This document shows, piece by piece, positions 1 to 35,184 of a stretch of DNA of 35,192 nt. How positions within the stretch are numbered: position 1 is the stretch's first letter; each line of letters opens with the position of its first letter. The DNA is from Magnetospira sp. (GTDB taxonomy: Bacteria; Pseudomonadota; Alphaproteobacteria; Rhodospirillales; Magnetospiraceae). Location: positions 1 to 35,192 of the forward strand of contig JANQIL010000143.1 in NCBI GenBank assembly GCA_028282245.1, written 5' to 3'. The notes under the pieces are model-generated. The model was not told the origin of the DNA. It did not search any database and worked only from the letters and a program-made list of their open reading frames with translations. The position numbers and the translations under genes were made by a program.

Positions 1-98
1 GGTACCCAAGCTTTGGATCGGTCGATCCACTAAGCTATTGATCTGGTGGTTCGATTCAGCCAACGGATGGGACTCATCCGTTGGCATCGAACCACTAG
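1..98 (-). repeat. Left copy of two-hairpin palindromic repeat (truncated)
   Basis: This is an inverted copy of the element at the right end of the window. Apart from two substitutions and a 3-nt insertion near position 20, positions 1-98 match the reverse complement of about 35067-35161. The copy contains a full hairpin: outer arms TGGTTCGAT (46-54) and ATCGAACCA (86-94), and perfect inner arms CCAACGGATG (60-69) and CATCCGTTGG (75-84). It ends in CTAG at 95-98. The second hairpin is cut by the start of the window. The element ends 10 bp before the likely pyrD start. It encodes no transposase and resembles a non-autonomous MITE or REP-like sequence. Its presence at both window edges suggests a dispersed family that broke the assembly. 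Confidence 0.9.
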
Positions 99-108
99 AC
101 GACGCGCC

Positions 109-1179
109 GTGACCGGCTGGTACGGCCTCGTCTGGCCTTTGGTCCGCCGTCTCGACCCGGAGCGCGCGCACGGCCTCGCCCTGGCGGCCCTTAAGGCGGG
201 GCTGGTTCCGTCCGGGCGGCCGGTCGCCGAGCCGCGCCTGCGCACCACCCTGTGGGGGCTGGAGTTCGCCAACCCGCTGGGTCTCGCGGCCGGCTTCGAC
301 AAGGAAGCCGAGGCGGTGGACGCGGCGCTCGGCCTCGGGTTCGGGTTCGTCGAAATCGGCTCCGTGACGCCCGAGCCGCAGCCGGGCAATCCGCGTCCGC
401 GCCTGTTCCGTCTGCCCGAGGACGGGGCGGTGATCAACCGCATGGGGTTCAACAGCCGGGGCCTTGAGGTGGCGCGGGCCAACCTGGAGCGCCGCCGTCG
501 GCGTGGCGTCGTCGGGATCAATCTCGGCAAGAACAAAACCAGCCAGGACGCCGCCGCCGACTACCGAAAGGGTGTCGTGGCCCTGGGGCCGCTGGCCGAC
601 TACCTGGTGGTCAACGTGTCGTCGCCCAACACTCCCGGCCTCCGTGCCCTGCAGGGCCGGGCTCCGCTGGCCGATCTGCTGGGCGCCGTCAAGGCGGCGC
701 GCGACGGCCTGGAGCGCAAGCCGCCGCTGCTCCTGAAGATCGCTCCGGACCTCACCGACGAGGACAAGGCGGATATCGCCGCCGTCGTGCTCGATCTGGA
801 AATCGACGGCCTGATCGCCACCAATACCACCATCGCCCGTCCGGATGGCCTGCGCGGGACCCGTCGCGGCGAAGCCGGCGGGCTCAGCGGGCGGCCCCTG
901 CTGGCCCCGTCGACCCGGGTGCTGGCCGACATGTATCGGCTGACCGGCGGGCGGATTCCGTTGATCGGGGTCGGTGGCGTGGCGTCGGGGGCCGACGCCT
1001 ATGCCAAGATCCGCGCCGGCGCGTCCCTGGTCCAACTTTATTCGGCCCTCGTCTACGGCGGGCCGGATCTGGTGACGCGCATTCTGCGGGATCTGTCCGC
1101 CCGTCTGGCGGCCGATGGGTTCAACTCGGTGGCCGAAGCGGTGGGAGCCGACGGCGGGCGGACAGTCAGAACGGATTGA
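109..1179 (+). CDS. pyrD: Dihydroorotate dehydrogenase (quinone), class 2
   Basis: PyrD oxidises dihydroorotate to orotate in pyrimidine synthesis and passes electrons to membrane quinone. The protein is 356 aa from GTG 109, normal for class 2. Visible family motifs are NRMGFNSRG (FMN region), [20 protein letters not shown] with the class 2 catalytic Ser, and IGVGGV followed by a phosphate-binding stretch near the C-terminus. The N-terminus, with RLDPERAH after a hydrophobic start, fits the membrane-associating helix of class 2 enzymes. The frame stays open back to ATG 46, but those 21 codons lie in the palindromic repeat, so GTG 109 is preferred. No Shine-Dalgarno sequence is visible before it. 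The 3' end overlaps the convergent eipA-like gene by 14 bp. Confidence 0.95.
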
Positions 1180-34929: not shown

Positions 34930-35070
34930 ATGCGGGGCCTGACCAAGTTCCTTCTGATCCTGTTGCTCTTGACCTTCGCGGCGGGCGGCGTGTTCCTCGC
35001 CACCTGGGATATTCCGGCGCCGGTCAGCAAGGTCGAGAAGGTGATCCCCAATGACCGCTTTCCGCGCTAG
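34930..35070 (+). CDS. 46-aa single-pass membrane peptide
   Basis: The short product begins MRGLTKFLLILLLLTFAAGG, a basic start and a membrane helix, then a short periplasmic tail (WDIPAPVSKVEKVIPNDRFP). The pattern of helix plus WDIPAP and VIPxDRFPR looks like a conserved small protein seen before aroK in related genomes; function unknown. ATG 34930 gives the clean hydrophobic start. Its stop TAG (35068-35070) lies in the CTAG that opens the palindromic repeat, so the repeat supplied or replaced the stop codon. Confidence 0.7.
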   Translation: MRGLTKFLLILLLLTFAAGGVFLATWDIPAPVSKVEKVIPNDRFPR

Positions 35071-35184
35071 TGGTTCGATGCCAACGGATGAGTCCCATCC
35101 GCTGGCTGAATCGAACCACCAGATCAATAGCTTAGTGGATCGGATCCAAAGCTTGGGTGCCAAGCGTTGGATCCGATCCACTAG
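35067..35184 (+). repeat. Right copy of two-hairpin palindromic repeat, full length
   Basis: The 118-bp element is bounded by CTAG on both sides (35067-35070 and 35181-35184). Hairpin 1 has outer arms TGGTTCGAT (35071-35079) and ATCGAACCA (35110-35118), and inner arms 35081-35090 with 35096-35105 with one mismatch. Hairpin 2 is a 24-bp stem (35133-35156 with 35160-35183), one mismatch, 3-nt loop. The ends match as CTAGTGG and CCACTAG. It codes for nothing. An IS630-type MITE or a REP-like mosaic element would fit; IS630 elements prefer TA within CTAG. Confidence 0.9.

Follow-up and report, generated by a model that had tools for sequence, protein, structure and literature searches.

What is the palindromic unit found at both ends of this window, the whole 35,192-nt stretch of Magnetospira sp. 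DNA analysed here, and where does it come from? The original prediction described a 118-bp unit of two hairpins at the right end. We recovered it at 35067-35184, with CTAG at its start and end and a two-hairpin fold (folding z-score -11.2; 0 of 200 shuffles folded equally well). Twenty pairs are predicted for one hairpin; the longer one, credited earlier with a 24-bp stem, does exist, but 23 pairs are predicted for it. The features are as follows.

35067-35184, forward strand: complete two-hairpin MITE, 118-bp variant, CTAG at each end (the consensus is 121 bp)
35067-35122, forward strand: hairpin 1; its outer arm (35067-35096) is similar to an IS630 left end
35090-35094, forward strand: GAGTC (GANTC) within the hairpin 1 loop, at position 24, as in IS left ends
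35108-35112, forward strand: GAATC (GANTC) at the 3-nt TGA bulge of the hairpin 1 inner arm
35123-35131, forward strand: spacer ATCAATAGC, separating hairpin 1 from hairpin 2
35132-35184, forward strand: hairpin 2, with an outer arm (35155-35184, reverse complement) that matches the right ends of IS630/ISAr1
34930-35070, forward strand: 46-codon ORF ending with a TAG stop inside the left-hand CTAG of the element
1-98, reverse strand: second copy, of the 121-bp form, which the contig edge truncates, with hairpin 1 at 43-98, spacer at 34-42 and part of hairpin 2 at 1-33
109-1179, forward strand: flanking dihydroorotate dehydrogenase gene, starting 11 bp past the left copy

The left copy agrees in all details with its earlier description as a reversed copy truncated by the window edge, with two substitutions and a 3-nt insertion. 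No copy had been noticed between the window ends, and no further CTAGTG or CACTAG site is present there. CTAG itself is scarce in the window, with nine sites (six outside the elements) for ~25 expected from trinucleotides, and stop codons account for a good share of the background sites.

BLAST searches with the unit identified more than 40 copies in the genome to which the window belongs. A covariance model built from ten copies gave 147 matches at ~90 places, many of which were hit on either strand owing to the palindromic nature of the hairpins. The copies thus far exceed both chance and the two of the window, and their flanks are unrelated. At least 29 contig starts and at least 19 contig ends lie within a copy or no more than 20 bp from one; therefore, the element broke the assembly. 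Both parts of the original prediction, a dispersed element and its effect on the assembly, are borne out by these numbers, which also explain breaks in short-read assemblies of other genomes bearing such elements. The same 99 bases end contigs C41 and C62, and contigs C37 and C138 overlap by 99 bases as well, which looks like an assembler k-mer of 99.

Copies no more than 86% identical are found in two genomes of the Defluviicoccus group, Defluviicoccus sp. SCELSE-4-Def (G048) and DF3PA (G032), and more divergent ones in a genome of the same genus as the window, Magnetospira sp. PL23b_bin.44 (G001). Variant forms include tandem copies with one common CTAG (contigs C56 and C50), single hairpins lying between CTAGs, forms of 89 bp in which hairpin 2 is short, and mosaics with a second family described below. 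Two single hairpins with CTAG on both sides (L190, G000 C45:26771-26836, and L191, G000 C14:5807-5871) have an identical 14-nt left flank, CAAATGCCGGGACT; they are two copies of one larger repeat, or result from duplication.

We searched for empty sites between the two Defluviicoccus-type genomes G032 and G048 with flank-joined queries. Four were found, in which a CTAG-like tetranucleotide is duplicated upon insertion. For L032/L114, the empty sequence is TTCGC-CTAG-CGTTGG; in its filled counterpart, a CTAG flanks the element on each side. This CTAG contains an apparent gene stop codon. A single CTAG is likewise present at the empty site of L041/L112; in its place, L031/L113 has one CCAG and L042/L111 one CTCG. 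Therefore, the tetranucleotide, or the TA inside it, is duplicated; these sites come from Defluviicoccus rather than from the genus of the window, and TA and CTAG duplications are inseparable there. Empty sites in relatives, at which the original prediction had pointed, thus exist in Defluviicoccus, and one of them shows an exact duplication of CTAG. Short (118-121 bp), devoid of a transposase gene, dispersed and, in the Defluviicoccus relatives, flanked by a target-site duplication, the element has the features of a MITE.

The element belongs to a superfamily of two-hairpin elements of 110 to 170 bp. Matches were found in 47 of 317 genomes and 19 of 115 genera of the order Rhodospirillales, and among 385 genomes sampled across the class, 12 had matches besides that of the window. 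The sequences are widely divergent, with a common plan: CTAGTGG, hairpin 1, a short spacer (9-14 nt), hairpin 2 and CCACTAG. The inner arm of hairpin 1 usually carries a 3-nt bulge. No matching family is present in Rfam. BLAST searches of plasmids with the element and several relatives yielded no match except for a 168-bp two-hairpin type (L106:1501-1668), which has CTAG at all four hairpin ends and is also present on Aminobacter and Bradyrhizobium plasmids (NZ_CP062115.1, NZ_CP121651.1). Model R1 had no match on S. meliloti pSymB and two other plasmids in a search run without a positive control. A match on a contig of Bacterium HR10 was dismissed as a chance one, since it lies within an apparent coding sequence and has no hairpins.

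When 23 representatives are aligned, 15 of the 26 predicted pairs prove to have survived changes in both partners. Such compensating changes, like the conservation of a GANTC in the bulge, could mean that the repeat is retained for a host role, in RNA hairpins at 3' ends, in transcription termination or as a methylation-marked site, and that its mobility belongs to the past. About half of the insertions are also located at the in-frame TAG stop of a long frame. Nevertheless, this share (25/48) differs little from the one seen for background CTAG sites (7/16), so that selection is unnecessary to account for it, and we dropped a stop-codon preference for that reason. Correction of one arm by the other could equally maintain pairing, and the presence of copies differs between two related genomes. 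We thus consider a host role as the reason for these repeats unlikely.

The origin of the element was sought among IS630-type transposons, whose transposases are present in all four core genomes (G000, G001, G032 and G048). By scanning IS630 loci for TA-bounded inverted ends, we identified L145 (genome G130), in which a 378-aa IS630 transposase is encoded between CTAGTGGTAAAAATCTAACGGATGAGTCCC and, reversed, CTAGTGGTCCGAGTCTAATGCTTGGGGCCC. These ends are similar to those of the two-hairpin elements of its genus (L084 and L085). The parent transposase matches DDE_3 (PF13358) and NCBIfam transpos_IS630 (NF033545), both above cut-off, and a protein search detected such transposases in 40 of 317 genomes of the order. 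ISAr1, found on named plasmids, belongs to the same transposase group. CTAGTG bounds most complete ISAr1-like copies, and the IS copies that were read mostly have CTAG at both ends, where again duplications of TA and of CTAG are inseparable.

Beyond CTAG, the outer arm of hairpin 1 of the window matches the left end of L145/L192 at 20 of 26 positions, and that of hairpin 2 matches IS right ends at 22 of 26; no shuffle out of 20,000 was as good in either case. Hairpin 1 matches some right ends nearly as well (18/26), and hairpin 2 matches the right end of the ISAr1 copy on pRiA4 at 26 of 30 positions. More generally, outer arms of hairpins and 30-nt ISAr1-like ends agree at 18 to 22 of 26 positions beyond CTAG, and for the eight arms tested between 0 and 7 of 20,000 shuffles were equally good. 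Based on these matches, each hairpin would be made up of ~30 nt taken from one IS end plus the same stretch repeated in inverse orientation, with hairpin 1 derived mainly from the left end and hairpin 2 from the right end. This folded-back IS end had been missed in the original prediction, as had the GANTC sites.

Other families of DDE transposases, including IS5/IS427 and IS701, are also able to duplicate YTAR or CTAG. The element might thus be a MITE of one of those families that resembles IS630 ends by chance, all the more as no matching IS630 copy was detected in its own genome. We regard this as improbable: the likeness spans ~30 nt, few or no shuffles equal it, and the left and right IS ends correspond to separate hairpins, 1 and 2, respectively. 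Two imperfect hairpins in opposite orientation, a stem bulge and a high copy number are also reminiscent of a REP/REPIN doublet moved by a RAYT, a Y1 tyrosine transposase, as in gammaproteobacteria. RAYTs have the Y1_Tnp Pfam domain, and REPs start with GT(A/G)G (PMC2817692). However, the four element-bearing genomes G000, G001, G032 and G048 have no Y1_Tnp match, while five control genomes had matches; the element ends with CTAGTGG rather than GT(A/G)G and duplicates a tetranucleotide, and its arms match the ends of DDE-type ISs. The REP/RAYT origin, given as the alternative in the original prediction, is therefore disfavoured, and we consider it highly improbable.

Thus, the element is very probably a MITE derived from the ISAr1-like branch of IS630, each end of which became a hairpin of its own. 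The IS630 origin proposed at the outset is supported by the copy number, the contig breaks, the empty sites with a single tetranucleotide and the match between arms and IS630 ends. An IS630 transposase with matching ends, for which the original prediction had suggested a search, was found in other genomes but not in that of the window. No ISAr1-like transposase was found in the latter assembly (93% complete, 168 contigs), and the only two IS630-type genes there are bounded by different ends. A DDE_3 match is also missing from nine of the 14 further element-bearing genomes that we examined, so that the present mobilizer is not evident and many copies may be old. As for the mechanism, we infer that an IS630-type transposase acting in trans would bind the outer ends and excise the element, whose insertion at the TA of a CTAG would leave CTAG on both sides. 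Single hairpins, tandems sharing a CTAG and mosaics may arise because every hairpin has, on its two sides, copies of an IS end in inverted orientation.

Other IS630 copies were found in contact with these repeats. When contigs C37 and C138 are joined, an IS630 copy appears inserted at the spacer TA of a MITE. We considered it as the parent, since it contains TATTGATC, which resembles the MITE spacer, but it is a different IS630, with ends ATACCAAC; this 8-nt likeness was taken as a coincidence. IS630 elements of a type with ends ATACCAACCGCCC comprise L057:1384-2558 with L064:1-99 (G000 C37/C138) and L182 (C109), and apparently hit the spacer TA of a MITE at least twice. Their transposase gene is split around a T run that may be a frameshift signal. 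Another family of two-hairpin CTAG elements, CTAGTGTCCCGAATCCGAAGTTCGG...CCACACTAG, adjoins an IS630 gene and was observed in the genome of the window and in G001 (L053:1233-1398, L064:512-600, L153, L185 and L060). In the genome of the window, this second family (CTAGTGTCC..) resembles the termini of IS630 elements from a more distant subgroup. The two families have CTAGs in common, and mosaics of both occur. The RIME repeats of rhizobia, reportedly described by Osteras et al. in 1995, are said to be intergenic mosaics too, and RIME1 to contain two large palindromes.

Lastly, we counted GANTC sites in 21 ISAr1-like elements of Alphaproteobacteria, which are not independent samples. At position 24 of the left end, GANTC is present in 20 of 21 elements, with T (10), G (6) or A (4) as N; at position 11 of the right end, it is present in 19 of 21, with C (7), T (6), A (5) or G (1). 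The information content of the G, A, T and C columns is 1.7-2.0 bits, against 0.2-0.5 for the N column. In the first 66 nt of the IS left ends of L192 to L281, additional GANTC sites with a variable N occur at positions 37 and 62, or at 49, directly upstream of the likely transposase start. In eight relatives from Actinomycetota, Betaproteobacteria and Gammaproteobacteria, the site at left position 24 is absent, and that at position 11 is found in Streptomyces only; these relatives are only ~43-48% identical, so that the effect of the host is not separable from that of phylogeny. GANTC at position 11 is also seen in a P. aeruginosa copy of which a single end was readable. In the MITEs, the bulge site, which is position 11 when hairpin 1 is numbered from its inner side, is GANTC in 22 of 23 representatives (once GAGTC), and the loop site at position 24 is present in eight of 23.

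GANTC is the motif of CcrM, a cell-cycle methylase conserved among Alphaproteobacteria (PMC9296519, PMC2877005), and the simplest explanation for the GANTC motifs of the IS ends and of the region close to the transposase start would be that they are CcrM sites. In Tn10 and Tn5, Dam exerts control through GATC sites, located at the promoter of the transposase gene and within the downstream end (PMC5390034). Judging by their sequences, ISAr1-like elements would follow a similar layout, one motif being close to the start of the transposase gene and another in the end that lies downstream of it, but with GANTC and CcrM in place of GATC and Dam. The GANTC sites, partly kept in the MITE, may couple transposition to the state of the DNA after replication. 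Whether ISAr1-like IS630 elements evolved CcrM control independently of the Dam control of Tn10 and Tn5, with two-hairpin MITEs and CIR elements as their rearranged GANTC-bearing offspring, is in our opinion an even call. The GANTC count of the window (120 for 124 expected from a second-order model, hence no depletion) is neutral as to CcrM there. In the accessible portions of the open-licence literature on GANTC, IS630 and transposition, we found no report of this GANTC pattern.

The nearest description in the literature, in a comparison by description rather than by sequence, appears to be that of the CIR elements (CIR1-CIR4) of Caulobacter and Brucella (Chen and Shapiro 2003), whose target duplication was listed as unknown and mobility left open (PMC2229807). 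Like the two-hairpin MITEs, these ~110-bp, intergenic alphaproteobacterial repeats have two inverted-repeat arms with a linker, TA ends and a conserved GANTC. The latter is at the terminal loop in CIR elements, whereas the best-conserved GANTC of the MITEs is at the stem bulge, with a second one often in the loop. Furthermore, the review names no parent IS for CIR elements, whereas the MITEs have empty sites and parent ends. The RUP element of S. pneumoniae, a 107-bp, high-copy MITE of IS630-Spn1 with IS630-type ends and TA targets, is a precedent for an IS630 MITE, although it has ordinary terminal inverted repeats rather than a hairpin per end and stems from a different IS630; no functional DNA motif is reported for it in the review (PMC2229807). 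The Correia/NEMIS elements of Neisseria (~105-155 bp) similarly have TA ends, form hairpins and reach high copy numbers, but they fold end to end as a single structure, and the review names no parent IS ends for them (PMC2229807).

Our findings thus provide a concrete origin and a transposition target for two-armed, GANTC-bearing repeats of Alphaproteobacteria, and predict the kind of transposase that moves them. They also suggest a possible origin for the CIR repeats of Caulobacter and Brucella, two-armed and so far unexplained. The GANTC wiring is the part most likely to surprise specialists. With GANTC sites at fixed positions, the element and its parent transposons suggest that jumping may be tied to the cell cycle, and this pattern makes methylase-timed jumping in CcrM-bearing bacteria directly testable.
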